Below, piece after piece: positions 1,090 to 63,962 of a stretch of DNA of 64,000 nt. Below the pieces are notes generated by a model. That model was not told the origin of the DNA. It was given only the letters and a program-made list of their open reading frames with translations, and made no database searches. Source of the stretch: Asterochloris sp. CNOR1 (Eukaryota > Chlorophyta > Trebouxiophyceae > Trebouxiales > Trebouxiaceae); NCBI GenBank assembly GCA_963969365.1, contig OZ017753.1:1302001-1366000 (forward strand), in the 5' to 3' direction. The position numbers and the translations under genes are program-made. The stretch's first letter is position 1, and every line of letters begins with the position of its first letter.

Positions 1090-3574
1090 TCACTTCTTCA
1101 CTGGCTTAAAGTAGGAGGCCAGCATCTTGGGCCTGCAGCGCTGGCCGCCGCGAAGCGCAAGACGCATCACTGCATCGTCTGAGCTAAGATTTGAGCTTAT
1201 CAGTTCCGGATGCAGCAGGTTGGCCAGCAACTGCACCCCTTCCACAAGCCTGCGTGATAGGGGCACAGCTTTGGTTGCTCAGGGATGCCAAGCCCAGGCT
1301 CACAGCATGCTCGCTGCACAAGCAAAAAGCTTGAAGCACAATATGGAAGCTTGAGTACCTGGGCCCAGGTGTGGTGAAATAAGCCGATGGGCATATGAAC
1401 ACAAGTCCCTGCCTCACGGCTGGCAGCGCCCACCAGCCAGGCTGCTGGGCAAGCTCACATACGTCTTGCAGGGAGCAGCCTGAGCCCGGAGCATCTAGGC
1501 ACAAGACTATCACCTGCACAACACATGTGGGTGACTTTCAGAGTGGAATGCGTGCTGTTGACAGCGCAGGCAGCATTGCAAAGGCTGTGCATGCAGGCAC
1601 TGGCTTGATGCCTGCTTTTCTCAGCAATGAAGAACCAGTGGCATTTGACTGTGCAGGCAATGGCTGACCTCTGGGGCATGCTGGCGCACTGCATCCCAGC
1701 TGGGTGCAAGAGGGCACGCCCCTGGCTCCAGCCAGGAATCTGCGCCGCCTGCCAGCTGCACCATTTCAGGCACCCACTGCCCCCCTACAGGCCAGGCAGA
1801 ATGTGCAGAACGTGAGAAGAGCTGCGCCTCAAGCGCGATCTGGGCGCAGCGCAGGTGCTGCTGCACATGTGGGAAGGCGAGGCAGTATTGTTTTTGCAAC
1901 CGTCAAGTCACCGCGGCAGGCGGGCCCCAATCCAAATCCACTTTTTAGAAATGCAGCATGTTCAGGCAGGGCTCCATGCAGCTGAGGTGCTGCTGCATGT
2001 GCACACAGGCAGCAGCTTGCTGCAGGGCAGTCCCACAGTAAGGTGGCAGCGGCAAAGTCCACCATCCGCCCCAGAAAGTCAGTCTGATGAGGCAGGCTGT
2101 TGCAACAGAGCAGTATACATTGCAAGCAGGCAGAGACGGACATATGAGCCTGCCCCTGATGGTGCTGCACCTAGCGTGAAGGGTTTAAGACCCTGCAGCA
2201 CCAGCGTCCTGGGGTGGCTGGCCTGGCACACTGCAGCAACTATGCCCCGCAACTGGGCCCTCAGCTGGTCCACCAGTCTGTTTGCCTCGACAGCTGCCCC
2301 CATGACCAGCCCAATCTGTGGGTGACAGGGCTGAAAAATGTCAGGGCATCACTCAGCTGCCTGCCGTCCTCTTTGAGGTGTTGGTCACACCAGACTGTGT
2401 CAGCAATCAAGACTCTGAGGGTAATGCATGGTCCAGCTGTGTGCCTGGTCCAGCTGTGTGCCTGGAGGATACTGTCCAGCATGTCAGACAGTACGTCAAC
2501 AGGGGGTGGGTTTCTGGTGAAGCATGAGTCACTGGGTGCAACTGTGGATGTGCAACGTGTGGGTGGTCTGTGCACCTGAAGAATGCTGTCCAGCACGTCT
2601 GCCATGGTGCGTGGAACCATCTTCAGCAACTGGACCTGCGGCTGCGCACTCAGCAGTCCTGACCGTTGCAGCGCCTGCAGACACAAAACATTGCCAGCTC
2701 AGGCCAATAAGCACAGCAGTCCTGCACCATGTCAGCCTGGACATGATCGAGCTCTTTCACAGAGCACTGCCTGCAGCAGGGTGGACTGGCAGAGCTGTCA
2801 TGAGACTAACTCTTGCAGCAGCTGCAGACAGCAGACTTGCCTGGTGGATGCTGCTGTCTGAGGAAGCAGCGTCATCATTTGAAACGACTAGAGAGGGTTT
2901 AGTCTGAGTAAGCCAGTCTTCATCTAAGGTCAACTCTACTGAATAGTCCTGCATGTGGACAAAACAGTTTTATAGACCAGCCCTGGCCTTATCTCGCCTG
3001 AGTGGTGAACAGCGCACTGCAGCAGAGCGCACACTTACCAAAACGGTCAGGTGTTTAGTGCCAGAGGGCACCCCTTGACTGACTCTCGGGAGTGCCGCGG
3101 CTTCGGCAGGGAAGGTACAGAGTGGGCTGACTCCAGCAACCCTGCAGCAGGGGCCAGGTTCAATCAGAGCCTGCTGGGTCCACAGCTTACACGAGGGCTG
3201 AGCCACGTCCCCAATTACACCTCAGCTTGTCATGCACCGCTGTAGTCCCATTGGCAACCCGCGACGTGTGTGTGCAGCCTGCTCACCTGGAGCCGAGTCC
3301 CAGTGCAAAAAGCGCCTCAGTGGGCCCAGGCAGGAGGCTGACGACGCCCCCGCTGAGACATCTGAGGCTGGTGCCCCAGCCCTGGCGCTGCTGGCAGGCC
3401 CTGGCAGCAGCCTCACTGCCTGCCGCCTCGCCAGCCTACACAGAAACGAACTGTGAGGATGATGTTGTGCAGGGCGTACATTGCATGACATTCAAAGGCT
3501 GGCACTTTGTTGTGACAGGCGCGATGCACCTGACAAGCCTGCGTGGCCCGCAGCTGCTGATCACTTCGCAACAT
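1090..3574 (-). CDS. BtuF-like cobalamin-binding (PBP-fold) protein
   Basis: Eight phase-consistent exons: 3435-3287, 3141-3039, 2948-2841, 2674-2576, 2315-2171, 1784-1669, 1513-1359, 1249-1090. A possible 45-nt first exon at 3574-3530 would add an ATG; the total is then about 359 residues. Family landmarks in order: VVSLLPGPTEALFALGLG (usual VVSLLPSATE), VSPLCTFPAEAAALPRVS, DEDWLTQTKPSLVV, PRTMADVLDSIL, GQWVPEMVQLAGG, PGWWALPAV and AYFTTPGPRLVEG. These match bacterial periplasmic cobalamin-binding BtuF/FecB-type proteins. No signal peptide or lipobox is visible, unlike bacterial BtuF, so a cytosolic or organellar role is possible. The third exon in this list ends in a GC donor (CAG|GCAAGT). 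The 5' end is the weakest part: E1 at 3435 has an in-frame stop just before its acceptor, so an upstream exon must exist. Function in B12 binding is inferred from family only. Confidence 0.78.
2461..2620 (-). repeat. partial duplicate of BtuF-like exon 2674-2576
   Basis: About 100 bp downstream of the true exon end (…DVLDSILQ, then GT) lies a diverged copy reading DMLDSILQ, ending CCAG|GCAC. The copy sits in the next intron. A 17-bp direct repeat (unit TGGTCCAGCTGTGTGCC) adjoins it at about 2430-2465. Confidence 0.65.
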
Positions 3575-3601
3575 GGAATGCACAAGCAGGGCATGTCGTA
3601 C

Positions 3602-5021
3602 CTGCAGAGATCGCCTGTGATGGAGCGGCTGCTGGTGCTGCAGCTCCGGAGCCTGCCGACTGCCCTTGGCACCGCCCTTGCAGCCCTGGCCCCCCTCTGG
3701 CAGCACAAGGCTGCCAATCCCGCTGCCAGACAGGTGCTCTGCATTGCCCAGGAGGCCATGCTGCCCGTCCGGCGCCAGCTTGCTGTGGTGCTGCTGCTGG
3801 AAGCCCGAGTGGCTGTGCAGCAGCGGCTGCTTTACAGGCAGGCCTTCATGCGGCGGCTGCTGCTGCTGGGCCAGGATCCCCTTCTGGTAGAAGGGGGTCT
3901 GGGGCGTAGACGGGAGCTGGGAGTGGTCTGCAAGCACAGGAGCAGAAGACTTTTGCGGTCTTGGTTTGGGACCCAAAACAAGCTGCAGACACGCCCGTGA
4001 GGCAGTCGCAGACACGACGGCACTGCTGTGCTGACCATCTGAGCAGCCCCTTCAAGGGGGCTCTGGGGCACATCAGCTTACAGCACACACCCACCTGTGC
4101 CAGGAGAGGGCGGCTGGGAGCTGGGCTGCTGCTGGTGCCGCCACTGAGGCTGCAGGCTGTACCCGCCCAAGCCACCAACAGGCATGCTGCCGGCGCGGTC
4201 AGCTGTGGGCAGTGGCCGCCCGCGGTGCAGCCCACTCCAGTCACCGGTGTGCCGGGCGAAGCGCTGCGAGGCCATAGGTGCTGGCCACACACCATGGGGC
4301 ATGTGGTGCTGCTGCTGCAACCCTGCTGGCTGCCCATACTGCGGGTGGGGTTGCTGCTGGGGGTGCTGCTGCAGCATGACAGTTGCACTGGCGTGCTGCG
4401 CCTGCACAGCATAACGATGCTTGGTGGCATGCAGCAGTTGGCAGCCACAAAAAAAACCCCTTCCCTGCTGTCAGCAGTCGCTCAATTCAAGACTGCACAC
4501 GCCGCTCTTGCTGCTGTGGGTAGCACAATGCTTCAGGGACTCAGCTGTTCATCAGGTGACTTGTGTGTCAGCACATCCTAGAGGCAGGCAGCCTGAGTTG
4601 GCATGGAACCTTGACTCAATGGCAGCAGGCAGCGAACCAGGGGCAGCACCTTGTCAGGGCCGGAGTGTCTGCTGTTGAACACTGCCCCAGCACCAAGCCA
4701 AAGCTGTGCATGATCCTTTGCAATGGACACCCTGCTCAGGGCCCCCCTGCCAGAAGTGCAGTCAGCTTTTCTCACCTGACATCCTGCACCAGCATACCCC
4801 AGAGCCAGATCGTCCGTGAGGGAGGGGGAGGGGCGCCCTGTCAACCGCCCTTGGCGGCTGGCAACCACTGCTAAGTCTGGGGCTGACAGCGAGTTGGGCA
4901 TGCCAGCGCTGTCAGACAGGTGCACATGGTGGCTGGGCACGCTGCCCCAGCCAGTGGGGTTGCCCAACTCCCACACATTTGCCGACAGGGTGGGCGCTGC
5001 TGCCTCCGCTGCAGCTACGGA
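3602..5021 (-). CDS. unidentified Q/S/P-rich protein exons
   Basis: Three exons that join in phase: 5021-4776, 4401-4095 and 4038-3602, each with clear AG acceptors and GT donors. They encode about 330 residues that are low-complexity: runs of Q and H (QQHPQQQPHPQYGQ), S/P-rich stretches, and motifs such as MPNSLSAPDLA. No enzyme domain is recognisable; the composition resembles disordered nuclear or RNA-binding regulators. No start codon in a convincing first exon was found. The last exon ends in phase 0, like the neighbouring CobB-like and BtuF-like exons on the same strand, so these exons might belong to either neighbour rather than to a separate gene. Confidence 0.45.
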
Positions 5022-5284
5022 CTGCAGGGGGACGAGGAACTTGTTGCAACACTGACATGCCCCTCTCAAGAGGGGTGCGTGGGTGCCAGCAAGGGTGGCG
5101 CTGCTGTCTACCTGCAGCCACAGGCTGTAGGGAGGGAGAGGCCTCAGCCTGGCTTCACTGTTGATGTCCCAAGCAGTCTTTCGGCAACAGCAGGCAAAGC
5201 CCTGCAGCTGAGTGGACTGCTGAGTGGACTGCTGGAGATGTATTCGGGCATCAATCACTGCAGATACTCAATCTGCAGGTAGGG

Positions 5285-8200
5285 TCAAAGGCTGACGCAT
5301 GCAGATGCAGTGCGAGCAAGCCTTCCTGGAGGTGTCAGAGGGGTGTCAGAACCCCTGTAGATGTTGTGGTTGACACCCAGCAGCAGAGGACTTGCCTGAC
5401 TCAGTGCCTGAATGTCCACCTGCCGGCAGCGCTCCACAAGTGCTCGCGCTGCCTCAGGGCATGAGGCAAAGTGCACGTGCACGTAGGAGGCAAGCACATT
5501 GTTGCAGGTGTACCCCTCTGGGACCGTCCTGCCCTCGCTGGCTCCATCTGCCTGCAGGGTTTGCAGCAGAAAGCCTCTGTCTATCACTTGTCTGCAGCAT
5601 CTGGAACACGCAGCATGCCGGAAGCTGCCAGCTATACAGATGCCAGGGTTTGAGGTGAGACCAGCATTCACAGCAAAGCCCTGCCCCTGCTGCCTGCAAA
5701 GCTTCAGCTTGCGTTCTGGACATACTGAGGCTGGTGCATGCATGCAGCATGCCAGATGCTGAGCAATGCCAGCTGGAGAGGAGTGTCCAGGGTCAGGCTG
5801 CAGCCAATCAGTCACCAGCTTGTTTGCCACCCGGCCCTCTGCAGTCGGCTGGTGGGCAGGATCCCATTTGTGCCTTGATGGCTCACCTGGATGGTGGCTG
5901 AATAGGTGTGCTTCCAGGCGCGCTCCTGGGAGGTGCCGCCCGCAGAAAAGGCACCCAGAACCTGCTCCTGCAGGCAGCATGCAGCACACCTCTGCGAGCC
6001 TCACAAACACCGTCCGGGCAGTCAGGGGCGGCAGTCTGACCGGCAGGCTAAACTCCACGACCAAGCTCCAGACATGGCAGGCCAGATCAGAGACCAGTGC
6101 CCTCTGCGTAACTTTGTCCACCCATCGCAGTCTCACAGAGCTCTGCGGGCCTGAGCAAGTGCGCAGGGAGACCGCATCCTGCTGGTGTGGCAGATGTGCC
6201 CTTCTGCCAGCCTACACAGCAACACATTCCATGCAACTTGACAGTCCCAGAAGTAGAGGTTGACCAACCTGCAGGAAGATGCGTGGCACATATTGCTGCC
6301 TGCGGGGGACAGGCAGCCCTGCTGGGCCTCAGACAAACAGTTGAAGACCCCACCAGGAAAAGAAACACCACCTGAGGAGGATCTCTTGGGGATGTGGCCG
6401 TGCAGCATGCAGCCTGTAGGGAAGATACAGACCTCCTGCACCGCCAATTCTGCCCCCCACAGCAGCCCAGCCCACACAACATGTGGATCCCAACAGAAAG
6501 CAGGACCCCACCTGCAAAATCTCACTGGAGTGGCAGATGTGGCCGCGCAGCTTGCAGCCTGCAGGGAAGAGGCAGCCCTGTCGTGCCTCCACCTCAACGT
6601 ACCCTGTCCTGCCTCCCCTGCGGGACATGCTCGTCCTGAACGGGAAGACGCCGGCTGCAGCACACCACAGCACACTCTCTGCCACAGCGATGCAGGCAGG
6701 CCCCAGAGAGTCCTGATGAGGTGCAACATGAAGGGGATGCCCCTCCTACAGGGCAAGTTGGCAGGGGAGCTTAGTTTGTCCTTCTCAAGAGGTTCCTGTG
6801 CATCAACAGACGGCTGCCAGACCTTCTGCTGAGCGGCTCAGCAGCTGACAGCAGGTGTCAGCGCAGCTGACAGCTCTGCAGCAGCTCTACGCCGCAAGAA
6901 GGCAGTGTGCTGCAGACATAGCGAGTCTTCCATCCCACAGCAGTGCTTGTGTAGTTCACCCACTGTGAGAAGGCAAAAATGCAAGGAGGCCACCCCTTGC
7001 AGCAGCTCACCCATTCTGCTGGGGAGCTCATCCAGCGGCTGGATGCTCTGTGAGAGGGCAATGAGCCCCCCAGACTCCGCATAGACCACTCCACCGCCAT
7101 CCGCAAAGGCCCTCACCGCCTGCATGAGCCCCCTGTTGGCTGCCAGCTGCTGGGCATGCCTCTCAGGGTAGCCACCACCCAGGTAGAGGCCCCCAATGTT
7201 GTGGGGCAGGCCCTCTGTGAGGGGCGAGAACGTGACAAGGTCTGCCCCTGCCTCCTCCAGCAGCCTGAGGTTGCTGCAGGACACACACCAAAAGAGGAGT
7301 CGTTTGCAAAGCAGATCACAAGGAGAGGGTTGAGACTAAGTTGGGGTCTGCCCTTGTCTCCTCTAGCAGATCAAGGTTGCGAGGCAAGTGCAGGCAGAGC
7401 TTGTGAGGGCAGTTGAGTACGAGAGGCACCAATTTCAGGGCGGCAGGGTGCACTGAGATGCAATGGGATCTACCTGTTCACCACACTTGAATTTGGCCAA
7501 GCAGCCAGAGACACCCTGTATAATGCAAGCAGCAATGGTCCAGATGAGCACATGAGGGTCTGGAAAGGTGCATGCTGTGTCAAATTGCCAGTCTCAAAAC
7601 GCAACTGCGCTGGTTTTCAGATAAATCCTGTATGTGCTGGGCTTCCCACTGTGCAGACTCAGGTAGCTGGCACGCAGCCAGAGCCTGTCTCTGCTGGGCA
7701 GGCAGCCAAAGTGCAACCGCGGTCTGCATGCTGCATGCAGCTGCTCACTCGTGGTAGTAGAAGCTGAAGGCGGCATCCCTGGCCACGGCCACGCGCACGT
7801 GCAGCTGTCCATTCAGCCAGGGCCGCGGGGAGTGAGCGGGGCGCGGCACCTGCATCATGCAGCGCCCCTCAGGCACCCTGCGCGTGCACATCACAAGGCA
7901 CAGTTGCATGCAGCGCACGCTGCTCTGCAGATGGCTGGCTGACTGCTGCCAATCAGCACATGGCTCATGTGCACTGGTCTGCCGCTGGCATCTCCTGCAA
8001 TCTGCACCATGGGCCAGCCCATGCCAGGCTGCCAGACCAGCTTGCTGTGCAAAGCGACGCTCCCTCCCCTCCCCCCTCCCCCCCCACGTCTCACCTTAGC
8101 ACTGCCTGCTATCTGCACCAGGGCCTGGATGTCCAGGTGTTCGTCCATGAGGTCTGCCAGCTCAGAGAAGCGCTGCCGCTGCAACGAAGGATCCAGAGGC

Positions 8201-9465: not shown

Positions 9466-9869
9466 CGTCAAGGTCGAGCTCAGCAGCTTGGCGATGTCTT
9501 ATTCATGTTTTGTTCAGTCCAGAACGCTGCAGAGAGCAGCCGTGGCAGCAACAGGATAACGTTGAAAGACATGGACGTGCCGCAGCTGCCACCTCCGCCG
9601 TTCATGCACATATCTATTCAGGCCAGCAATGCAAGCTGTCAAGATCAAGGTTGGCATTGAGCAGCCATGCACTGGCAGACTTGCAGCTGCCTACGATCTG
9701 CATGCAATTTGCTTCCAACCTGTGCATCTCACACTTTTTGTTACAAGCGAGTGGGCCATCAGAACACTTCACATGTTGCTCTCACTGACTTGGGGACAAC
9801 GCTCAGACACTGTAAGGTATTGCTCACGGTGCTCGTCTGAGCCATAGTAAAGGATGTATACTGCATCAT

Positions 9870-11325
<1,456 letters not shown>

Positions 11326-14203: not shown

Positions 14204-14208
14204 TGTAA
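14204..14208 (+). terminator. TGTAA poly(A) signal after TBP
   Basis: TGTAA lies 131 bp past the TBP stop in a T-rich stretch. This is the known chlorophyte polyadenylation motif; use here is inferred. Confidence 0.5.
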
Positions 14209-14437: not shown

Positions 14438-17400
14438 ATGAATGGCACCATCAGGGTCCTCCTGGGTCTTCTCATCGCAGGCTGTGCGGCATGCAGCCAA
14501 ATCCTGCTGCAGGTCAGATTGCACAATGACCATGCATGGCACCAGATGGCCAGACCTGAGGCCTATGGCGTACCCTGCAGGGAGGCACAGTTGTCAATTC
14601 AGATAAGCAGGAGCTTGCAGATGTCCTGATCAACGATGGGCTCATTGCTGCAGTGGGGCAGGGGCTTCAGGTCAGTGGACCTGAGAGGCACTTGCATCCT
14701 TGCATGTCAAGGCGCAGCCTGGTCCACGCTGCATGCAATGCAATGCTGACTGCAGAAGTCTGCACGCCAGGACCTCGTCAATGTTGCATTTTAGTAGTGC
14801 GCCTGTATGGTCTGCAGGCACCACCTGGGGCACAGGTCCTGGATGTCGCGGGCAAGCTGATCTTGCCAGGGGGCATTGACCCTCACACCCACCTCCACTT
14901 TCCTTTCATGGGCCATGTTGCAGCAGACGACTTCCTCAGGTGGGGTGGATGTGCGCTGTGCCTCTGATATGGTTATCTGTTAAATTGTGGTCTTTGGATG
15001 ACAGGAGCTGCACAGACAACGCTGTTCCATTACGCCAGCTCTGCTCAGGTTCCCCCAAGACTTTGCCATGACAGGAGCAGCTCAAGTTGAGTAGGATGTG
15101 CAGGGCTGTTACCAGCTGAGGCTGTACTCTGCTGCCCAACTCTAGAGAACCTCAGGTAGCTTCTTAAACACCTGCAACCCCACGCCATGCACCTGCAGTG
15201 GCCAGAGTGCAGCACTGGCAGGAGGGACGACGATGCACATCGACTTTGCTCTGCCCCTGGAGGGCGACCTCATGGCAGGCTTCGACCTGTGGCAGAAGCA
15301 GGCTGCCAAGTCTGTCATGGACTATGGCCTGCACATGGCCCTCACTGCCTGGGATGGAAAGGTGCGAGGGTGTTCCCTTGCAGCTGAGGGTGCTCTAGCT
15401 TGCCTGGCTGGCAGCTGAAAGACATGCATGATGCCATGCCACCGCACTCCTGCATCAGCATGGTGTGCTGCTCCGCACTGCTTGCACAGGTAGCTGCACA
15501 TGCTCATCTGCACCAAAGTTCTTCCTGCCAACACAATTCAATATGTTCTGCTCTGCATCTGGATGGGCTCCGTGCAGGTCAGCGCTGACATGGCCAAGCT
15601 TGTCGATAAAGGTGTCAACTCCTTTAAGTTTTTCTTTGCCTACAAACACGAGGGCCTCATGGTTCGTGACGAGGTAGGCAGGCTGTGCAGCAAGCCACCC
15701 CGCTCTTTGCCAGGTTGCCTGCACACATTGGGCTCTGCTGCAGCACATCCGAAGACACTTTGGGGTGTGCAGTGCCTTGCTGCCCTCTGCTGCGTTCTCA
15801 GCTTGCATTGCAGCAACTGTCATGTGCAGCAGTACCCTTGCGTGTGTGCTGCTTCCGGCAGTAGGACCTGTGGCATCCTCTGCTGCCCTCTGGCTGCAGC
15901 TCAATGCGGCTGCACTGGAACTGACGTCCTGCATTGTTCCCTGGCTGCAGCTGTTCCTTTTTGCGCTGCAACGCTGTAAGGAGCTGGGGGCGCTGGCCAT
16001 GGTGCATGGCGAAAATGGAGATGCGATAGGTGCGTGTTTGGTGCTTGCCTTGAGCTGGTAAGCTTCGTTGATGGCCTGTGCTTGTGAATGCTGCGGTTGC
16101 GCAGCAGGCACTGGCACTTCTGGCAGACGGTGACTGAGGTTGCAGCCTGGCAAAGCGCCTGCGACACTTTGCAGATGGTGCTGGGCCAAGTCATGATCTC
16201 ACTCCAAATTGAAGAGCAGGCTGCTGCTTTGCTCAGTGTAGCCTGCAAGGCACAGGGCCACTGTGACCTCATACAGCATCCTCAGGCTTCAGTCGTGCAT
16301 GCCTGCAGCGTATCTGCAGAAGGAGACCTTTGAGAAGGGCATCACCGGTCCAGAAGGGCACAGCGTGTCCAGGCCAGCATACCTGGAGGTGCGCACCTGT
16401 GGCAGCCAGCATCTGATGAGCTGCTGAAGAGCCCTGTGTGCCCTGCTGTAAGCCTGGCCTGCCTGCTCTGGCTGCCACGGCAATGCGGTCAAGTCTGATT
16501 CATTTGTGTGCATGCTTGCCTGTCCTTGCCACCCCTGGCAAAGGCAGGCATTGGGACACACAAAGTTGGCAGTGACCGGATGTCCTGCGGGCCAGGGGGC
16601 GGCCACTGCAGTCAGGCTGGCCTGTGTGACAGAGACCCCTCTGCATCCGGCCCAGTCAGCTTTGTGCTGATGCTTGTCTCAGTCTGCAGGGGGAGGCCAC
16701 CGGGCGGGCAGTCAAGCTGGCCCGCGTGACAGAGACGCCGCTGTACGTGGTGCACGTGATGAGCAAGGATGCAATGGACGAGATCAGGCTGGGTCACGAG
16801 GCAGGGCAGAAGCTGTTTGGGGAGGTGGTCAGCGGAGCGCTGGCGCTGACGGATGAGCCCTGGTGGGTGCTTGTGCCTAGATTTTGGGCTCTGCACAATC
16901 GCTGTGCAGAGCCTGTGAGGTTGGGGATGCATCCTCTTCACCTCTAGGGAGCACTGCACGTCATCTGAACATGTGGCTGGATGTGCTGCAGTTGGGACCC
17001 AGACTTTGTGAAGGCCGCTGGCCACGTCATCAGCCCTCCCCTGCGCAGCAAGCCCCATCAGCTAGCCCTGCGCAATGCCCTGGCAGGGGGCATCCTGCAG
17101 CTGGTTGGCACAGGTGGGGCTGCCATGACAGGGTACTCAGCAATGATTGTGCCCGTGTGTTTCAGACAATCTGCAGGCTGGTTGGCACAGAATAGGCCAG
17201 TACAGCTTGCTGAGCAACACTCATGCTGTGATCAGCTGCCAGCCTCCCTGTCTTCGTTTGTGCATCGGGCGGGCTTTTTGAAGCAGTGAGGTTTCAGGCC
17301 GGCGCTCAACGCCACTCAAAGAGATAACCTAGCATGGTAGCTCCTTTGCAGCGAGCATATGGCTGCCCCTTGCAGATCACTGTGGCTGGAACAGCACCCA

Positions 17401-46600: not shown

Positions 46601-48672
46601 GCACAGGAGCTAGGGGAAGCGCATGTTTGGTCGATATGTTTGCATGTTGGTGGTCTGCCAGTATGAGCTGAGCCAGCCCCTTTAAACAAAGAATGTGTGC
46701 TGCAGAACAGCAGGGCAGTACAGTGTTCCTTTAAAAATAACAGCATGGTCAGCATTACTGTGTATTGTCTGGCAAGGTTCCTGGCCTGCAGCCATGGCAT
46801 GTGGCCCTACAGAAGGTCTCTGCAATTTTGCAGGAGAACGCGCAGCTGAAACAGCTGAATGCAGAGGCTGAGGAGCGCACAAGAAAAGCCAACCAGCGCC
46901 AGCAGGCAGACGTCCACAAGCAGGTAGTGACAAACAAGCTATGTAGCAGCTGGTGGGGCGTCATGTGCACCTTTGATCTGAATCGAGAGCCCTCACTGCC
47001 TTCCTAGACAGCCCAGGCTATCATGATCAGCATCTGCAGCCTGCAGGTTGCCAAGAATTCTTCCAGGCACCCGGGTTGTGCTCAAGATGCTGACCCTTCA
47101 GGCCAGAAAGAAGGCGCCGCCTGTTAGTAGATGTGCCAGCAGTGCCGAGGGTCTGCTAGATGCTGGGCCTCTTGCGGAGGTCCCCTACAGACAAGCAAAT
47201 AAGCCTCCCAGCAGCAACAGGAGCCTCTGTAGACTCACATGCTGGTCAGCATTTGGTTGCTGATGGCGCCATGCCCCACTGCAGGCTGGCAACAAGGCTT
47301 GCCAGCAGCTGCGCTGCCGGCCTAGAACCCCCAGCTGCTGACTGCAGCACACCTACCCTGGCCCTGAAAGCCCTTGACTCCCCACCGCAGGCGGGCAACA
47401 AGGCATTCCAGCAGCAGCGCTACCAGCAGGCCCTGGACGAGTACAGTGCCGCCCTGGCCGCCAGCACCGACGACCCCGGCGTCAACGCAGTGCTGCACTG
47501 CAATCGCGCGGCGGCGCTGCACGCGCTGGGCAAGTATGTGGAGGCCGTGGCAGACTGCTTTGTGGCGGCTGAGCTGGACCCTGGCTACATGCGTGTACAC
47601 CAGCGGAGGGCTGACGCATACACAGCAATGGGGGACTACGCCAGCGCGGCGCAGGTGGGGCTGTGCTGAAGACTCGCCGTCGTGCCTGAAAGGGTGTTTT
47701 GCAGCTGCACAGAACGCAGGCGGGCAGGTTTTGCTAGCGTGAATGTTTCCTGAAACTTTGTCAGGTATGTGAGGCGCCGGAGCAGACTGCTCTGTGTGGG
47801 AATCGGACTCTGGCTACGTATGTGCACAAATGTCCTGCTGAAGATACCAACACCACTGAGCAGCTGAGCTTGAAAACAGAAGAATGCCCCACGCAGGGTA
47901 CTGGCCTCGTCATGCTGGCTGTGCAGCACTTCGTATTGATCGCGGAAGTGTGTACCATGAGCTGCATCACATGCCCCAGGCAGCAATGCAGAATATACAC
48001 AATTCAGGAGGGAAGCAGCTACACGCAACACGAGCTGCACTGCAGAGCTGAGATGCGCTGTGACAAATCAAGCTGAGCTGCAGGACCTGATGCTGATGGC
48101 AGCAAAGGGCGGCAGCGACGTGCAGCACGAGCTGCTTGAGATGCAGCGCAAAGCAAAGAGCCAGGGCACAGCCAACCACTACAAGGTGCTGGGCGTCCCA
48201 GCCAGTGCTTCAGCTGCAGACATCAAGGCTGCCTACAGGTGCGCTGACGCTTTGCCAGCGTGACGGCCGCACTGCATGCGCTGGTTCAGCATGATCCTGG
48301 ACTGTGATCTGCTGTCTGCGGACCAGCCCCAGCCTGAGCCGTCGCAGGCAGCCTGCTGCCTGTGTATGCTGGACCGGCGTCCCTTGATGGGTTGCTGCAT
48401 GTCTCCCACACCTGCTCGGTGCAGATGGTGCCAGGGACTGAGCTTGGCCTCAAGCCCAGCTTCTCTGTTGCAGGCAGTTGGCACTCAAATTCCACCCCGA
48501 TAAGGCCACTACCAAAGCTCAGAAGGCAGCAGCAGACGCTCTCTTCAAGCTCGTATCCCAGGCTAATGCCTCCCTGTCAGACCCTGAGAGGAGGCGCCAG
48601 TTTGATGCCACCCTGTTGAAGAGGAAGTTGAGGACCTCCACCAGCATGCGTTGGTCCAACTACCGCTTCTGA
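40698..48672 (+). CDS. large coiled-coil/TPR/J-domain co-chaperone
   Basis: Thirteen exons, every junction in phase: 40698-41645, 41936-42235, 42342-42938, 43221-43407, 43654-43801, 44093-44330, 44844-44976, 45155-45421, 45734-46404, 46834-46923, 47391-47654, 48084-48238, 48474-48672; 1,398 residues. Residues 1-about 690 are A/S/Q-rich and look disordered. Coiled coil follows (EELHQRQAEAAEAASELARA, VEKKQELRQMQDSM), a second S/G-rich part, then another coiled coil that runs straight into a TPR (AGNKAFQQQRYQQALDEY, HCNRAAALHALGKYVEAV). The J domain at the C-terminus has HYKVLGV, the HPD triad in LKFHPDKA, and LSDPERRRQFDA. Layout resembles plant TPR15/TPR16 DnaJ proteins, which partner Hsp70/Hsp90. 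The protein stops soon after the J domain. Confidence 0.82.
44291..44710 (+). repeat. three copies of TPR-J exon 6 end
   Basis: The exon 6 tail (GCATGCGGGACGAGCGGCTG, 44302 on) recurs as GCACGCAGGACAAGCAGCTG at about 44372 and as ACATGTGGGATGAGCGGGTG at about 44671. The last copy keeps CAGTGGCAGGCGAGC, a GC version of the real donor. Confidence 0.72.
45587..45808 (+). repeat. duplicate of TPR-J exon 9 start
   Basis: GGCAACAGCAGCAGCAACCT…GGGAATGTGCAGCGCCA at 45587 matches the real exon at 45742 (GGCAACAGCAGCAGTGACCT…GGGGATGTGCAGCGCCA). The upstream copy has its own CCCCAG acceptor but reaches a stop (CTTAGTGCTTGA) soon after. Confidence 0.78.
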
Positions 48673-49437: not shown

Positions 49438-50275
49438 GTGATCTGGCTGTCACTAAGCTGCGCGAGTTGAGTGCCTCAACACAACATAAGCAGTTTGTAT
49501 TGGTGCACAGCATCCTTTGGGTGCCTCAACCCAGCTTAGGCAGCTTGTGTTGCTGCTCAGCACACTTTGGTTGCCATGGTCCCACATGTATAGCTTAGCT
49601 TGCCACCCAGCAAACGCCAGATCGCCCAAGGCCGAGTCTGGAGGCTGATGTGCACAGGACTGGGGCGTGTGCAGCTTACACTGTCAAAATCGGGTGCTCC
49701 ATCTCATGCTGATGCAAATGCGTGAAATGCGCATAGTGCAGGTGATCCAGCACCTCGTCAGTGCTCCTGGCCCTTGGCAAACAGGGATAGGTTCTGCTGC
49801 AGGACTCCATTGCAAGGAGTGCCATTAAGGGGCTGTGCTGGCGAGTCTTTAGTACATTACTGACCGTCATTCTGGTGCTGGTCGTTTTGCGAGGCAGTGT
49901 CAATGTAAGCTCTCTGAGTGATGCTGTGGCAGTCATACTCCTGCATGCATGCCTGCTTTGCACCATGCTGCCGAGGGGCCTTGATGGCCAGCTATATGCT
50001 TACCCACCAACATCCATCGGTCATGCTATTCTGTGCCTGCAGCTAAAGGATGCACTCAGTCTAGGATCGGTAGAATTCTTCAGCAAGTATGTGATGTACA
50101 TAGCCCATGAACAGCTGTGGGCCTACTTTGGCTCTTCTCATTGATCCAGCACAGAACAAGAGAGCGCTAGATAGTTCCAATAGACAGATGCTTGCAGCAT
50201 GTTCTTGGTTGACTGCCTTTGCGTTTCATTTCATACAGGCTGCTGCAACACATGGATCTCAAGCTTAGTGAGGTT

Positions 50276-53200
50276 TCAAATGCAGACCTCAGGCAGGAAT
50301 GCAGAGCTGAGTTGAGGGTTGAGCGACTTGGACATGCTGCCGCCTGCAATGTGAGATGCAATTATTTCTGCTGTGGCTGGCCCCAGTGTAAGACCAGACC
50401 CTTCATGCCCAGCAGCCACGAACACATTCTGCAGACCCCGCAAGGGCCCAATAATAGGCCGACCACCAGTGACAAAAGGTCTCAGTCCCACTCGGGTTCT
50501 GGCTACATCTGCTGTCATCTGCTGCAACCTCAGCTCATCGAAGAGCTCCATTGCAATATTGGGCAGGAAATGAGCAGCCCGCTCCAGTATCGATTTTACA
50601 ATGGCTGAGCTTGGCATGGTGTTAAAGCCAGCAAACTCCCGCGAGCTGCCCAGTAGGAGATTCCCAGACACGTCCTGGGTGGCAGTGAAAGTGATGTTGG
50701 CAGCTTCGTCACCAGCTCCAGCCGCTGGCTCATAGTGCTGCACAGCAAGTGCAAGGGGAGAGTCAGCCTGTCAGCAGCAGCTCCTTCACTGCCTCCTTGC
50801 CGGGTGCTTGGCCACGGGAGGGCAGTGTGCTATCGCGGAGGCCAGGCAGTGCAACCACCATTCTCCTGCGATATGCAGGGCACACACCGGGCGAGGACCG
50901 CGCCACAGCATGGTCCGTCCAACTGCAGCTGCACATTCGGTGTGACTTGGTCACCAGCGCGAGTGCAGCCCTGCCTGATGTTTGTGTGCCCCATCCATCA
51001 CGATTTCTGCTAGCAAATGCCCGTGCCGCTCAATGCGTCGCAGCACTGGCCAACCTGCACACTCCATCAGGCACCAGCACTGGGCACCCTTCATGTGTGT
51101 CATGCCAAACTCAAGTCTCAAAAGCAGCTTCACAGCCCACTCAGGGTTGCCCTGCAGCTGTGCACTGCCTGACCTGTGTGTAGCACATCTCGTGGAAGGT
51201 GCCTGAGTGGTGAGTGTGGCATGTCTTGGGATCTCAACGGCAGCCCTCAAGCCTTCCCAGAGCTTGGCAGCAGCAGGCACTGCTCGCATGGCCCAAGCCG
51301 CCGGTGACAACCTGCCGCTATCACCTCCATCACAGATCTGACCAGCAACTGCCCACCCTGCATGCTATGGGCTTCCCTAAAAGCTTCAGAGGCCACTCAA
51401 GTGTACCTTGCAGCTGCGGTACTGAACTGACCTGCGTACACCATCATGTCTCCCCTTTGGAGGACTTCTCCTGTAACTGCAATGTCCATTACTTCACACC
51501 TCTCAGGAAAGTAGGTACCTGCGTATAGCCCATCTCCATCATGCCGTGGTGCAGCAGCGGCATTGCAGTCGGGCGCTGGAAGCACAGCAGGTGCCCCTTG
51601 CGTGGCCTGAACAGGGCCTCCCATCGTGGATCGCCCAGCATGTCTGTCAGCATCTGGCCTGTCCAGGCGCCAGCTGACAGGACCGCCCCACGCCTGACGG
51701 CCACTCTGCAGGGTGAGGCAGCTGGAATTGATGTATTGTCTGTGTGTGCTAAGGTTATGCCTGACGGCCACCCTGGACGGCCACTCTGCGGGGGAAGGCA
51801 GCCGAGATGCATGAACAATGTGGGCTCGGGTAGGGGACACCAGTGATGCATGTCAAGGGCGGGCTCGACAGGCATTCTGCAGGGTCAGGCAGGTGGGATG
51901 CAGGCGCGGCGTGGGCTTGAGTGAGGGGGCTAAGCATGCATGCATGCAGAACTGTTCAGACACGCAGCGCATGGCCCTGTGAGCAGCTCTGCCCCCAGGA
52001 AGACCACCAGCAGAGGCAAGGCATTCCAGCAGCTGCACCAGCTCACTCAAGAATCAGCTGCAGTCCACTCTGGCTGTCCCAGGCGCACTGGAGGGTGCAG
52101 CTCTGAATGGAATCAGTGCTCTGCACGCCTCCACTGACCAGCACTCTGGCTCACTCAGGCCAATGTCCCTGGAGGGCCTGACCAGCGTCAACCTACCTTT
52201 GGGTGGCCGTCTGCACCTCCTCCAGTTTGAGACCACAGGGGGACAGCTTCATGGCTGTGACTGGCTCATTCATGAGCTCCACAAGGCGCCCGCTTGCATC
52301 CCCCAGGTGCCTGCACTGCCTCAGCAGCGCCTGTGCTGCCTCCCTGCCATTCTGCAGGACACACCTGCTTGTATACACTTGCTATGCTTGGCGTTCAGCA
52401 GGATCGCAGGCTGTCCGTGACAGCTTGCTGCTGGCTGCCTCTCCCAGCTGCTTGCACCAAGCAGCGCATGTGCCAGACCCCTGCTGTTCTGCAATGCACA
52501 CATGCAGCCGCTCGCCTGGACTCATCAACCTTCAGGAGAGTTGCTGGCGTCCATGCAAGCATGCAGCCATGAGCTGCTTGCTGACACTCAGCGGGGTCAC
52601 CGCCGCTTGCTGCTTTGGGAGCACGCTTACTGCCCCAACAGTGCGGCTTGTCTCGCGGCACTCTCGACATGCTGCAGGTGGCTGGACTCTGGCTGCCACT
52701 GGAGTTGTAGCTGTCCACACAGGCGTGCTGCTGGCTGCTTCCAGGGACAGCAGCAAACCCGCTTGTGAAACAATTCTGCTCCCTTCTGCAAACCGTGCAT
52801 ACACAGCATCAAAGCTGCTTCAGGCACAGGACCACTGGGCCACAGCTCAGGCCCGACTAACATGCAGGCCTCCTGAGACGCCATATTCTCGCACCCTGCG
52901 CAGGGCACCCCTCACCAGCTGGGCGTCGCATTCAACAAGCAGCCCGCCACCCTTTGGAGGCAGCACAACCGCCGGCTCCACACTGCGCAGCTCCGCAGCA
53001 TCCATGAAGCGGCTCTGGGTGTCATGCTTCCCCAGCAGCTTTGCCCGCTGCTGCAGGCTGGCCACCTCAGCTGGTGTCTGGGCCAGCAGCAGGCTGCCAT
53101 TCTCCTGCAAAATGGACTCAGGGGTCAGCCTGGCCCTTTGGCAGTGCTGGCAGCATTGCCTGCGTTTCAACTCCACAGGAAGCCGGCAGAGGGTCTACTT

Positions 53201-56209: not shown

Positions 56210-59200
56210 ATGGACAGGGCTCAGGTTCTGCTGAACCACTTCATGCCCCAGGCAAGTGCAGCATTGCGCTGCCGCCGATTCGCATTCAAGCCCTTTCCCA
56301 CATCTCGATTCGACATGATCTGGCGTGTTTGCAGATGGCAGCAGCTGAGAGGGAGCATCAGATGGCTCAGGAGGCCCAGCTGCAGGTGAGTCTCACATCG
56401 CCACAGCTGCCTCCATGCCTGGTCACTCAGGCAGCCAGAGGTATACAGAGTCACAGCAGACAATATGGTGCTGTCTGCTGCAGGCGCAACCCTGCATGGC
56501 TGGCGACTCCGCAGGATATGAGCGCAGGGCTTCTGCAGAGGATGACGTGGTCGTGGTCACTTCATTGCGGACACCCATTTGCAAGGTGCACAGAGCTCGC
56601 AGACACCTGGTGTCCTCATGTCGCTGGTCCTGTAGGGGTAGCTGCGCCTGAGCGGCATGGCACCCTCATCCTGTGGCCGCCACATGTCGTGGACTGGTAT
56701 GCCTGCTGTCTGCCTGACTGCCTGTGTGCACCAGGTGCTTGCAGAGCAGCTCGCTCTGGGCGGTAAGGACCAGGTCGGCTCTCTGTGCCAAAAGCAACCG
56801 CTTGGCACCATAGTCACTCCGTTGAAAGCCGCCTGCTTGCTGCAGGCTAAGCGTGGCGGGCTGAAGGACTGCCCAGCAGATGACATGTTTGCAGCTGTGC
56901 TGGCGGCCACCCTGGACCGCAGTGGCGTGGAGCCAGAGGTGGGGCTTTCTTGCCTATGCCTCCACAGCAAGTCAGCAGAGGGCAGTACTTTTTCAGCAGC
57001 ACATGGCTATCCCATGATGCAGTGCAATACGTGTACACACACAGCGCCGCCAGTCAGCCAGCTCAGCCTGCTTTGAGCGGTACACAGCTGTTATGCCAGG
57101 TCTGCAACAGGCCCTGTGCTCAGGTGATGCTCTCCCCCAAATAAAGTCAGTAGGAGCAATCAATGGTGAGCCGCTGCTGCTTGCTGCAGGCTGTGGGCGA
57201 CATTGTGGTGGGCAGCGTACTTGGCCCCAGCTCCCAGCGAGCAAATGAGTGCCGCATCGCCATGTTCCTGGCTGGCTTCCCAGAGACTGTGCCAGTGCGC
57301 ACTGTGAACAGGTCAGCTGGGGTTGGCACATGGCATGATTGCGGAGGTGCATGAAAGCTGCGACCAGGCCCAGCAGAGCCTGTATGCAGCCTCGACACCT
57401 GGCACTCAACGCCTGCCTGTGCGCTGGACTTGGGCAGCCTGGCAGCCTGGCCTGTACAGCACTGGAGTCACCCACTGCCTGAGCACCCACTGGCACCCTG
57501 CAGGCTTTGTGCTATCTGACCCCTGTAAAAGTGTGCCTGCTGCTCAGTCTCTCAGCTGCAGTTAGAGCAGTCTCTCAGCTGCCCTGCCCTGTCCTGCTGC
57601 AGGCAGTGCTCCTCTGGCCTGCAAGCCATTGCAGATGTGGCTGCAGCCATCAAGGCAGGTTTCTATGATGTGGGCATTGGAGGTGGAGTTGAGACCATGA
57701 GCCTGAACCCCATGGCCTGGGAGGGGGGCGTCAACCCCAAGGTTGCTGCCAGCAAGAAGGCACAGAGCTGCCTCATGCCCATGGGTGAGTGTTCTGCTGT
57801 GTCAAGCCCCTGTTCCGGCTGGAATGCCAGCAGCAGGTCACTGCTGGTCGAGCAGCATGTATTGCGTGAATCTTGCTTGACCCAGTTGCCGGTGATCTAG
57901 TAGCTATGGTCGCCTAGGCATTCCACAAGCTGATGTCCCTCAAGGAGGCAGCCATACTGCTGCAGGCATTATCACAATGTGTTGCTGCGATGTTATGTAT
58001 GCTGCTTCACAAGCAAAGGCTGCATTGCCCTGCTGCACCTGCAGGCAGCTCATCACAAGAACGCAATGTAATTGGGCCCCCTGCTGCCAGCTATGGCCTC
58101 TGCAAAGTCTTGAGGATATCAGTGCCCCATTTGCAGGCAGCACAAGGGCAGTCTAGCACAATCTTGGGCACTGCAGGCCTTTGAAAGGATTGTTTCGCAA
58201 GACTGTAGCCCCTGCTGCAGGCGTGACCTCTGAGAATGTGGCTGCCAAATATAGCATCCCCCGTGAGGAGCAGGATAAGATGGCTGCCACCTCTCACAAA
58301 AGGGCCGCCGCTGCCACCGCCTCTGGCCGCTTCAAGGACGAGATAGTGCCAGTAAAGACTCTGTGGAAGGACCCCAAGTCAGGTGGGCTGCTTTCCTCTG
58401 CTCCTCAAGTGTAGAAGCTTGTCGAAGGACCATCCCTGAGACGAATCAATCGCAGGTGGTAAGTCAGCTGATCTGCTTTTGGCCATTATTTCTTGCCAAT
58501 CATGCTGACATCCATGCAGCATGGCTGTTGGCCCAGGTTCTCAATTTGTACTTCAGTGAGACCGCCAACTTCGTCTGCAGGTGAGGAGAAGGAGATTGTG
58601 GTGGACAAGGATGATGGCATTCGCCCTGACATCAGCGTGGCCACCTTGGGGGCCCTCAAGCCAGTCTTCAAGAAGGGCGGAACCACTACTGCTGGCAATT
58701 CCTCACAGGTTGGCACCGCAAACCCTGTGCTGCCCATGATGGGGCCTGCCATGCTCTTGCCTGCCATGCTTACTTTTGTCAAAGGTGGTGGCACGATGGT
58801 GCACCTCAGTACAAGCAGTAAGGACAGGCTGCAAGCAATCCTCCGGGGACACACATGGCAGATCTCGTCAACCAGGACAGTCACAGATGGGCCACGGCTT
58901 AGACAACAGCAACCAGCCTGCGTGCTACAGCTCAACCTGATTACCATACCTCAGTTCAGGCATCCCCTCTTGGGAGCATTGTATCACTGACCCTGTGCAT
59001 GACCTGCGGCACCATACACGACCTTGGCAGCTGCTTGTCTCAAGCCCCTTCCCTCTGGTGCCCTGCAGATCAGCGTGGCAGCCACCCTGCTGATGACGCT
59101 CAGGGCTCACTGTGCCACATCCTGCAGCTGCACAGCCTCACAGACCTTAACTGAATCCCGGTGCCTGTACTGCCCTGCAGGTCAGCGACAGTACAGCAGC

Positions 59201-60337
59201 CATCCTGCTGATGCCCCTCCACACCTTTTGTTGATGTGCCGATACAATCCTAGCACCACTGGTGCCCTGCAGGTCAATATTGCTACCCTGCTGATGACCC
59301 GCCACAGCTCACTTTGCTACTCATGTGGACACATACACTCTCATGCAAACCCCCTCCATGCCCTGCAGGTCAGCGATGGTGCTGCAGCCACCCTGATGAT
59401 GACTCGCCGTGAGGCCAACAGGCGCGGCCTCCCCATCCTGGGCATCTTCCGCAGCTTTGCTGCTGTTGGGGTGGACCCTGCCATCATGGGTGTGGGGCCA
59501 GCTGTGGCTATCCCAGAGGCCGTCAAGCAGGCTGGCCTGCAAGTTGAGGACATCGATCTCTTTGAGCTCAATGAGGCCTTTGCATCCCAGGTGAGAGCAT
59601 CTCACGACTTGTTCCGTTACTCTCTGGACAGCAGGCGGTGCCCCTTCAGCACCGTCATGGCCACACACCATTCGTCCTCCCTGCGCCATTGTGAGCAGAA
59701 TGCTCAGCACTCATCCTTGGGGAGCATGTGCAGAAGCGCCTGCCATCTGCAGATCCTGGACTTGCTGAACTTGCAGCACTGTGTGCTGCTGCAAGAAGCT
59801 GCCACTCACTGCGGTGCCTTTTGATGGCATTCAATGCATGTCACAGTAGCTTTGACTCCTGCAAGTCTGCAAGCTGCTGTTGTGGGCCTGGGCTATTAGG
59901 CTGTATCCTGCAGCATGGCTGAGCAGGGCCTTCTGCCCTGCTTCTCTGAGAGAGATGCACGTCTTCACCTCTCTGCAGCAAGCCTGTGGTGCTGCAAGAA
60001 GCTGGGCCTGCACCGTCAGCTTCTGTCCTGCAGCCTGAACAGGGCACTGACCCCTGACAAAATAAGCAGTCCAGTGAACACCCTGCAGCAAACCCCTTGA
60101 CATGTGGTCCTGCAGGCAACCTATTGTTGCGACAAGCTGGGCCTGGACCGCGAGAAGGTGAACGTGAACGGAGGCGCCATCGCCATGGGGCACCCTCTGG
60201 GCGCCACTGGAGCGCGCTGCACAGCCACCCTGCTGCACGAGATGCAAAAGCGGGGCAAGGCGGCCCGGTTTGGCGTGGTGTCAATGTGCATCGGCTCCGG
60301 CATGGGCGCGGCCGCTGTGTTTGAGCGCGGTGAATGA
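56210..60337 (+). CDS. KAT: peroxisomal 3-ketoacyl-CoA thiolase
   Basis: Ten exons in phase: 56210-56251, 56335-56385, 56484-56585, 56846-56938, 57190-57311, 57603-57784, 58221-58382, 58581-58708, 59369-59590, 60116-60337; 441 residues. It catalyses the last step of fatty-acid beta-oxidation. Exon 1 encodes [23 protein letters not shown] aligns with the plant thiolase PTS2 RQRVLLEHL, though Ala at position 2 is off consensus. Catalytic residues: [10 protein letters not shown] (Cys about 139), [16 protein letters not shown] (His) and [12 protein letters not shown] (second Cys). Other marks: [52 protein letters not shown]. Exon 1 ends with a GC donor. Exon 2 opens with an in-frame ATG directly after its acceptor. 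Confidence 0.96.
59061..59410 (+). repeat. four tandem copies of thiolase exon 9 start
   Basis: CCCTGCAG followed by a GTCAGCG-like and ACCCTGCTGATGAC-like block occurs at 59061, 59173, 59265 and 59361. The last is the real exon (CCCTGCAGGTCAGCGATGG). Spacing is 92-112 bp. Each copy keeps an AG acceptor. The first three are diverged and lie in intron 8. A similar echo of exon 10 is at about 59978-60010 (TGCAAGAAGCTGGGCCTG). Confidence 0.85.
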
Positions 60338-60887
60338 ATGCACTGGGCTGTGAGCCTGTCTCTGGCTGCAGTGCTGGCTGGTCAGTCTTGCTGTGATCTG
60401 GTGCCAACAAGCGCTGGCTCCGACTATGGGACACAGCTGCAGTCTTCAAGCTTTCTGGCTGGCCTGGTTTAGTGGCTTGCCTGAGGCTGCAGTGCTGGTC
60501 AACTTCTTCGTCCATCTGGCCGCACTGCCAGGCTGTGCAGTGCACAGTGGTGCGCAACCTGTTGGCCAAGCCTGCCGACTCAGCAATCTGCCACATGTCT
60601 GCCGCAGGTGGGGAGGTTGACCAGTACAGGAATGCACGCCCCAACCCTTCGCAAGGCTACCTGTCCAGGGACGCCCAGGCCTGAAGCCACCTGAGCCACC
60701 ATGCGCTGTTGTGAAGCAACCCCCTCTCCGCCATGCTTCACCCCACCCTAGCCTCTGTATGGCTTCACCTGTGTGTAGTGTGTCATTGAAGCTGCCACTA
60801 GGGCATTGCAATCTCAGAGTTGCCAGCTGTTGTGTCTGAACCTAGAGCAGCCCTATTGAACTTTGCCTTCTTATAAGCTCCAATTTG
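60338..60887. other. intergenic region, thiolase to GATA gene
   Basis: 550 bp holding the thiolase 3' untranslated region and the promoter of the next gene on the same strand. A TATAA occurs at 60872-60876, but only 16 bp before the next ATG, so it is unlikely to serve as a TATA box for that start. No exon is supported. Confidence 0.4.
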
Positions 60888-63800
60888 ATGTACAGAAGTG
60901 AAAGCATGCCGATGGACATGCTCCAGGAGTGGGGCCTAGGCAGCACGGTGAGCATCAACCGTCAGTCTGCGTTGATGCGAGAGACAAAACTGCATCCTGC
61001 TGACGCCCGGCCCGTACTGCTGCAGATGGGCTTGCTGGACGGAGACGGCCCTACATCCGAGGTGAGTCGGACTCCAGTGTCACCGCAGCACTTAACTGAC
61101 GCAACCGCTGAGCCTCTCCCCCCTGTAGCGAGCCTCCTGCCACCCTCCTGCAGGGCTCAAGGATCAGCAACGGCATACTCTCGTTTCCCCAGGCAGAAGG
61201 CCATCATGCTGGCATGGGTATGCTGTCAGCTGGCGACCTGCCCTCGCCGTTCTCAGTCGGGGACTTTGGCAGTGCACCAGACCTGGCAGGCCTGTCAAGG
61301 CAGGGTGCACCTCACATGGAGCCCTCCAGCTCATCACCCCGGCGCACCTTCAACATTGTGGCCTCCACCGGCCCGCACTCTCTGGGACCGCATGTCTTTC
61401 TGCAGCATCGTGCAACGATGCAGGCCCCGGCAGGTCTGGACCTGGCCCTGCCAGACGTGGAGACCCAGCAGATGTTGGGTTGGGGGTTCGATGGCATGGG
61501 CGACGGCAACCGCTCAGTCATGGCACAGCAGGTCAGCGCACGTGTCATGCACCACTGATTCCTCATTGCAGTCTGCCTCAAAAGACTGACTGAGGTTGCT
61601 TGTACACCTTGTTCAGCCTGCACTGCTAGCACAAGCCAGCCAGGCGTTCCGGCAGTGCAGCGTACTGCTTGGGTAGCAATGCAGGCATCTTGGTCTGCCC
61701 CAGCGCGACAACATGTACGTGCTGCAGGAGGCCTCCCCTCTCTACCACCACCACTCAGCGCCAGACATGCGCAGCTGGGTGCAGCAGGGGGCCTTTGGGC
61801 AGTGGCCTCAGGGAGCAGGATGGTCTGGGCAGGCTGCAGGGCTGCCGGCCGTCGGCGGCAGCAGAGGCGGCCATATGATGACAGCAGGCCGGGCTGAGCT
61901 GGTGAGTTGTGCAACTGCAGCGGCCTCCTAGGACGCACTGGCAGCAAGCTGCCCTGTGCGAGGTGCATGCAGTAGGCGCATGCTGCACACAGGCTCAGCA
62001 TGCACATCCAGTGTTTGAGTGCCTGGCAACAGCGCTTGGCTTGTCCAGGGAGTCAGAACCCAGCTAGCCCCTGCACCAAAGGGAGCATTTCTCACGGAGC
62101 ATTCCTTAGGGAAACTCCACATTGAAGCGGCGCTCACCCTTGCTGATGTGTGGCTGCAGGCGTCCTTTGGCAGCGGCGCAATGAGCGGGGCAGTGGCCAG
62201 CGCACAGCCAGTGAATGCTGTGTTAGGAGACCTGCGCTCATCTCTGGGACTGGGCACCCCGATCCAGCGGACCCAGCTGGCCCGCTCCCAGTCAGCCGCC
62301 CACGCATGTCTGCTGCGCCCTGGGCAGCAACCTCAGGGCAGCCTGCCAGCTGTCTGGGCGCCTGAGCTGGCGCGCGCCAACTCCCTGCAGGCCACCTTTG
62401 CCGAGGCGCAGGCCAGCCTGCTGCAGGCCCAGGCTCAGGCCAAGGGCCTGGCAGGGGTGCCCCCTCGTGTTGGGGGGTCAAAACGCGACTTCGCCTCCAT
62501 CTCCACCCTCGGCACCAACGACAGCGTGGCCAGCCACCAGACCGTGGTGCGCAAGGCTGCCTCCCCGTCCCAGGTGAGGTTACTGCTCTGAGGTCGCGCC
62601 TGCGCTTGCAGTGCGCGATGCAGCCCCGTCCTTCAAGATATGGTCACACCTGGCATGGTCAGGACCAGTTGAAAGTGCATAGGTCAAGACAGAGGCCAAG
62701 ACAAGGGAGCCTTGAGGCCTATAAGGTCCTGGCAACTGCTTCTGTGGTCATCGCATATGCGTGCAGGCAGCCTGCTGGCCCCACCTGCAGGGAAGCTCAT
62801 TGCTGAGGGCTGCCTCAGCCCCTGGAGACAGCCTCTGCTACACTTCTTGGCTGCATGATGCGCATGCCAGCTGCAGGGGCAGCAGACCGTCTCGCTGCTG
62901 TGCATACTGGAGTCGTGGGGAACCTGGGCGGCATGATGCGCCTGCAGCAGGTCTTGCAGCCACCCCTGAAGGATACCCAACGGTTTCAGCACACATCCAG
63001 TGACAAGCTGCTGATGTTTCTGTGCAGGGAACAGGGGAGCTCTCAGCTGTGGGCTGCCCCTAACCACAACGTCAGCCTCTGCCGACTGGCGCTGCTTGGC
63101 ACTCACCACACACACATGCTGAGTACCTGCAGCCGCACTCTCACAGTGACCACACTCACCTCACTGCCCCACCGCAGGGAACCTCATCGCTGTGGGCTGC
63201 CCCCGCCCCCGAGGACAGCCCCAGCTCACCCGCGCTGGTGGGGCCCCGCCATCGCTACACCACACGCGCTGCCAAGGCCGCTACTGGAGGGGCCGCCCCC
63301 AGCCTGGCATCTCCTGAGGAGGAGGGCAGCGGGGACAGCAGCTTGGGGCTGCCACCCCCCCAGCCAGCTCCCACCAAACGAGGTGAGGTCTTCAGTGCTG
63401 GGCTTGGTGACTTGCAGACTGCTGGCCGGCAGGTGAAGTACGGCTGAGTGGCTCTGTTAATGCACTCAACCTGCACGCTCTCAGGGGATGCAGCAGACAC
63501 GCCCCGATTGCCAGGCTACCATACACAAAGGGCAGCAGTTCAGTGCATAGGCTCCCGTGCAGCATGCTACATGTGCTCAAATGGCAGCTACTCGTTTGCT
63601 GGGCAGCCTTTGCAGTTGGCCTTGCACCGTCGGCCTGCAGGCGCTGCAGTGTGGCTGTAGACTGGAAACCCCCTGTTGTCCTGCAGGTGTCAAGAGTGGG
63701 CCACCACCAGTGTGCCGTAATTGTGGAGTCACATCCACCCCGCAGTGGAGAATTGGCCCTGGTGCGTTGCTCTTGCACCTTGCTGGCCCTCTCTCACTCC

Positions 63801-63962
63801 ATGGTGTCTAGGCAAGCATGCCAGCAGTCGCTGTTCCGTCGCATTGCATGCTGTGCTGTCATTTGCTGCGCTGGCATCATGTAAATTGGGCTGAGCTGAG
63901 CCTACTCTGCTGAAAACATGCGTTTTTGTGCGTGCAGAGGGACCGCGCACCCTGTGCAATGC
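60888..63962 (+). CDS. GATA-type zinc-finger protein (3' end outside window)
   Basis: Seven exons seen, all in phase: 60888-61061, 61193-61531, 61704-61901, 62160-62573, 63178-63382, 63687-63761, 63938-63962; about 476 residues to the edge. The first 400 or so residues are rich in Q, S, G and A without known domains (motifs GSAPDLAGLSRQ, LGWGFDGMGDGN, HHHSAPDMRSW). Near the edge comes VCRNCGVTSTPQWRIGP, then, after an intron, EGPRTLCNA: a C-x2-C-x18-C GATA finger of the plant/fungal class, missing only the last Cys and the basic tail. Such proteins bind WGATAR sites and regulate transcription (in plants, nitrogen and light responses). The intron inside the finger begins after GP. Confidence 0.85.
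62785..63230 (+). repeat. three copies of GATA-gene exon 5 start
   Basis: The real exon start (CCGCAGGGAACCTCATCGCT, 63173 on, then GTGGGCTGCCCCC) has diverged upstream copies at about 62785 (CTGCAGGGAAGCTCATTGCT) and 63022 (GTGCAGGGAACAGGGGAGCT…CTGTGGGCTGCCCC). All keep an AG acceptor. Both extra copies lie in intron 4. Confidence 0.78.

Follow-up and report, generated by a model that had tools for sequence, protein, structure and literature searches.

Old, decaying copies of exon edges lie in the adjacent introns of a green-alga-like 64-kb genomic window

It is accepted that segments within genes can be tandemly duplicated (PMC3443670), and a new intron of the potato RdRp gene arose from a tandem duplication spanning a junction (PMC4974935). 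Internal gene duplication (Gao & Lynch 2009), as summarised in PMC3443670 and PMC4974935, involves within-gene segments that include intron-exon parts. The copies described here were found in a stretch of 64 kb of DNA, hereafter the window, and resemble these systems in part. As in the internal duplications of those summaries, segments lying within a gene, intron-exon parts included, appear to have been tandemly duplicated, and similar segments in direct orientation were found within one gene at short distance; unlike in that set, about 12 of the 16 genes carry copies, which are old, lie nearly all across one junction and follow a strict order rule, a contrast that concerns the pattern and is not a direct comparison of rates. 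As in potato RdRp (PMC4974935), the intron-exon border is copied together with its acceptor; however, the potato copy led to a new intron and an inserted exon, while here the spare copy decays inside an old intron. Tandem duplication near splice sites is shared with the AGGT model of intron gain, but the present copies are not flush with the opposite intron end, and existing introns were apparently lengthened, with none made anew. Introners (PMC9860276) likewise bring rapid change of intron content to many genes, whereas the copies reported here are gene-specific, with no family common to different introns (1/120 in introns of other genes; no dispersed family by self-blastn).

The duplication process itself is known; the new features, as seen in one 64-kb window, are how densely the copies occur at junctions, how strictly the order rule holds and the apparently common age of the copies. 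Internal duplication rates of 0.001-0.013 per gene per million years have been reported. Over tens of Myr these could yield as much as about one event per gene, and the density in the window may thus equal or exceed the highest known rates without being of a new order. A literature search returned no report of the exon-edge copy pattern in green algae, and the Coccomyxa C-169 genome paper makes no mention of exon-edge copies. A search for algal relatives found none: in viral contigs the matches to thiolase and purN queries were all distant, and TBP had no match either there or in genome contigs.

The window is intron-rich, green-alga-like nuclear DNA with 57.7% GC; its GC and intron length resemble the values published for Tetradesmus obliquus (57% GC, mean intron of 462 bp). 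Exon borders derive from gene models made by a small gene finder trained on the same 64 kb, and gene identities were checked with Pfam and PDB searches, which identified CobB-like, GST/DHAR-like, TBP, dihydropyrimidinase, MFS, purN-like, LpxC, HAD, TsaE, Hus1, TPR-DnaJ, FAD oxidoreductase and KAT2-type thiolase genes. Two genes labelled 'BtuF-like' and 'GATA' in an initial annotation of the window had no Pfam match, and these labels are left without Pfam support. When the chosen exons are joined without the copies, the resulting thiolase and dihydropyrimidinase proteins match homologues along their length, and the exon borders of these two genes are therefore secure.

For about one in five splice junctions in the window, the neighbouring intron holds, approximately 100 bases away, an old and decaying duplicate of that junction's exon edge. 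When 60-base junction segments from 60 acceptors and 60 donors were compared with their own intron, a copy, called at p ≤ 0.01, was found at 14/60 acceptors and 11/60 donors (25/120 in total), while the introns of other genes gave 1/120 and the reverse complement 3/120. Exon interiors gave 2/80 and intron interiors 4/104. A Smith-Waterman comparison of whole exons with adjacent introns placed 17 of 158 exon sides at the floor p of 1/201, where 0.8 are expected and the reverse complement gave 2 (158 sides), and self-blastn of the window yielded 29 direct and no inverted pairs when a score of 30 bits or more and a spacing of 50-500 bp were required. With the intronic flank removed, exon-only queries still recovered 22/151 versus 2/151 for the reverse complement; the copies therefore do not result from splice motifs common to all junctions. 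Near-diagonal blastn pairs touched exons in 20 of 30 cases versus 13 (sd 2.7) expected by random placement, an excess to which slower decay of pairs with one constrained partner may contribute. The presence of decayed duplicates of exon edges in adjacent introns is thus confirmed.

Low-complexity sequence rich in CAG and CTG could give similarity by chance, and CTGCAG is indeed the commonest 6-mer in the window (228 occurrences versus 138 expected from dinucleotides), probably because of the acceptor consensus and the many CAG/CTG words. Single cases whose z is below about 4 are uncertain and may include chance matches; however, introns of other genes, the reverse complement, exon interiors and wrong-side introns are all near background, and these controls refute chance similarity for the whole set, for which we consider it exceedingly unlikely.

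All eight genes in which the initial annotation had noted exon-edge copies carry at least one (BtuF-like, CobB, dihydropyrimidinase, HUS1, TPR-J, oxidoreductase, thiolase and 'GATA'), and copies were found in four more, LpxC, TsaE, the MFS transporter and a coiled-coil gene (Table 1). No clear copies were found in the TBP, DHAR-like, purN-like and HAD genes. The direct orientation of the copies, claimed in that annotation, and a density near exons above background, which it had named as support to be sought, agree with the pair and junction counts given above, and its spacing of mostly 70-240 bp was close to the measured offsets of 63-402 bp (median 107 bp in the homology-supported set). The HUS1 gene also holds direct repeat pairs, matching at about 78%, that are wholly intronic (39487-39540 / 39571-39624 and 38929-38985 / 39058-39114); duplication is therefore not confined to junctions.

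Table 1. Exon-edge copies and related copies in the window (positions in the window; strand of the gene where given).
Feature	Position	Strand	Remarks
Thiolase exon (VSDGAAATL...), source of three acceptor-edge copies	59369-59590	+	junction spanned by alignment to Arabidopsis KAT2
Thiolase decayed copy 1 (acceptor and exon start)	59059-59111	+	
Thiolase decayed copy 2 (acceptor and exon start)	59171-59220	+	82% over 50 nt
Thiolase decayed copy 3 (acceptor and exon start)	59263-59303	+	
Acceptor-edge copy, thiolase exon 60116-60329	59973-60019	+	
Acceptor-edge copy, dihydropyrimidinase exon 16690-16862	16593-16645	+	85% identity; border homology-supported
Acceptor-edge copy, TPR-DnaJ exon 47391-47654	47274-47321	+	85% over 48 nt
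Acceptor-edge copy, 'GATA' gene exon 63178-63382	62778-62843	+	84%
Second acceptor-edge copy, 'GATA' gene exon 63178-63382	63032-63108	+	
Three donor-edge copies, coiled-coil exon 44093-44330	44357-44407, 44444-44494, 44656-44706	+	
Acceptor-side copy, coiled-coil exon 45734-45938	45569-45703	+	
Acceptor-edge copy, CobB exon 7011-7273	7323-7380	-	AG lost
Copy of CobB exon 6512-6558 including both flanks	6365-6434	-	another copy at 6286-6330
Acceptor-edge copy, exon 4866-5008	5084-5141	-	
Acceptor-edge copy, oxidoreductase exon 52197-52351	52436-52505	-	
Two acceptor-edge copies, oxidoreductase exon 51519-51705	51768-51813, 51859-51904	-	
Donor-edge copy, BtuF-like exon 2576-2674	2454-2496	-	
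Acceptor-edge copy, BtuF-like exon 2576-2674	2771-2845	-	
Acceptor-edge copy, HUS1 exon 39889-40051	40068-40128	-	
Donor-edge copy, TsaE exon 36190-36368	35971-36038	-	
Acceptor-edge copy, TsaE exon 36917-37008	37132-37201	-	
Donor-edge copy, LpxC exon 29489-29595	29659-29729	+	
Donor-edge copy, LpxC exon 30715-30918	31022-31105	+	
Interior copy, MFS exon 22944-23228, short of junction	22685-22788	-	in downstream intron
Interior copy of TPR-DnaJ exon, short of junction	47758-47860		in downstream intron

The copies follow a strict order with respect to the exon. For acceptor edges, a copy was found in the upstream intron in 17/60 cases, in the downstream intron in 2/60, where in one case the entire exon of 47 nt is copied, and two introns up in 0/45; donor edges recur downstream in 10/60, upstream in 0/60 and two introns down in 2/45. 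Pooled, 27/120 lie on the edge's own side versus 4/210 elsewhere (P = 1.3e-9), and for genes with protein homologues only, 13/94 lie on the own side versus 0/94 on the wrong side, with a median offset of 107 bp.

Taking into consideration (i) the junction excess, (ii) the direct orientation and (iii) this order rule, which together support the frequent local duplication across exon-intron borders proposed in the initial annotation, we consider it probable that the copies are what is left of small tandem duplications that arose locally, with offsets of about 65-400 bp, each across one splice junction. The flat codon-position mismatches, the frameshifts and stops, the match to homologues of proteins assembled without the copies, the multi-copy introns and the greater length of introns with copies, all described above or below, speak for the same reading. 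A duplication spanning an acceptor would leave the intron end and exon start present twice, with only the downstream copy joined to the whole exon, while after one spanning a donor only the upstream copy would be so joined. The exon-attached junction would still be spliced, the mRNA would be unchanged and the intron would be longer by one unit, while the spare copy would be spliced out and decay free of coding constraint. Copies would always be on the intron side because, after a one-junction tandem duplication, splicing goes on at the junction attached to the whole exon, and they would be visible mainly at exon edges because selection holds one partner still and because within-exon or whole-exon duplications are usually harmful. 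Beyond about 15 nt into the intron, homology did not exceed the null, and abutting tandem units are therefore inferred rather than directly demonstrated; long gapped intronic extensions looked like full tandem units but failed the null test. Also counting against the tandem-duplication model are the near absence of a third-position excess, the lack of young copies and the two copies, in the interior of the MFS and TPR-DnaJ exons, that lie off the junction and may be remnants of larger duplications.

The copies are about 62-85% identical to the exon, and their mismatch rate is flat over the three codon positions (0.298, 0.269 and 0.299), with frameshifts or stops in many copies. These features argue that they are not alternative exons, and the expectation of frame and codon constraint for tandem or mutually exclusive exons failed; new exons, as suggested in the initial annotation, are thus not supported. 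Some copies are nevertheless open in frame, those of dihydropyrimidinase and TPR-J among them, and AG is kept in about 8/13 acceptor copies, as might be expected if the copies were retained parts of alternative or mutually exclusive exons, or decoy splice sites selected for splicing regulation. However, most partial copies have no second splice site, AG retention is no better than neutral decay predicts, and donors are mostly lost, GT being present in just 1-2/9 donor copies (AG and GT were read by eye, with small shifts allowed). The earlier statement that splice sites are often kept thus stands for acceptors and not for donors, and decoy sites do exist without being better retained than by neutral decay; we regard selected exon parts or decoys as a quite unlikely explanation of the copies. 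A special conservation of decoy acceptors was seen with queries that included the flank and vanished with exon-only queries.

Several copies of one edge occur together in introns of the thiolase, coiled-coil and oxidoreductase genes, and in the coiled-coil intron each copy resembles the exon more closely than it does its fellow copies. At one site the three copies of the edge of thiolase exon 59369-59590 carry CTGCTGATG, whereas the exon itself carries CTGATGATG. The corresponding residues of Arabidopsis KAT2 are Leu-Leu-Met; sharing these residues with KAT2, the copies appear to preserve an older coding state than that of the present exon.

Introns could also be born when exon segments containing AGGT are tandemly duplicated (Rogers model), a proposal that has tandem duplication near splice sites in common with ours (PMC3443670) but in which the copy lies flush against the opposite end of the intron. 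Comparisons of the intron start with the downstream exon start, and of the intron end with the upstream exon end, gave 0/120 at p ≤ 0.01; AGGT intron gain is refuted for the detectable copies, and we give it almost no credence here.

Small duplications across a junction would, by their geometry, make introns grow, as the initial annotation had supposed, and this fits the median length of 534 nt for introns with a copy versus 293 nt for those without (P = 0.002), although longer introns also offer more room for copies. The summed offsets come to about 3.7 of the 26.4 kb of intron.

At most one of 22 copies is at least 88% identical to its exon, and that one is a 23-nt stretch, whereas a simulation of duplication at a steady rate gave an expectation of 36% of detectable copies at this identity (binomial probability of one or fewer in 22, about 7e-4). 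Young copies, which would mark duplication in progress, were not found in the window. This deficit, calculated for one 64-kb window under a simple mutation model, suggests that most duplication events are of similar, old age, and moderately supports the shared age class that had been anticipated; the absence of young copies hints at an old burst, and we infer that many copies come from one old period. Error-prone copying, by which copies would be diverged from birth and not by slow decay, would likewise leave no young copies, and it agrees with the scarcity of silent change in the exons, third codon positions having almost no excess mismatch (below expectation if silent exon sites drift freely), and with transversions being slightly more frequent than transitions. 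However, identities are widely spread, no mutation class dominates, unlike in known directed mutators, and noise in the alignments would make the pattern flat as well; we judge such copying highly unlikely in comparison with slow decay of tandem duplicates. A wider reading, which we put forward as a possibility on the doubtful side, is that a lineage burst of junction-spanning tandem duplication gave a large share of intron length, so that introns would to a considerable extent be fossil exon edges and the visible copies would record older coding states.

Intron growth in transposon-poor genomes is poorly explained. A junction-spanning duplication would be nearly silent because splicing can keep the exon-attached junction, and this would give a simple ratchet of intron lengthening. 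The order rule provides a clean test applicable to any annotated genome, and exon-edge fossils could aid the reconstruction of older coding states and are likely to mislead gene predictors.

Other tandem repeats were also observed in the window. The longest-period TRF array, a 50-bp unit present 2.2 times (79% matches), lies at 49467-49575, 3' of the TPR-DnaJ gene, and at 24613-24809, in a stretch without a confident exon, a perfect 16-bp unit is present three times beside a direct pair at 24667 / 24760.
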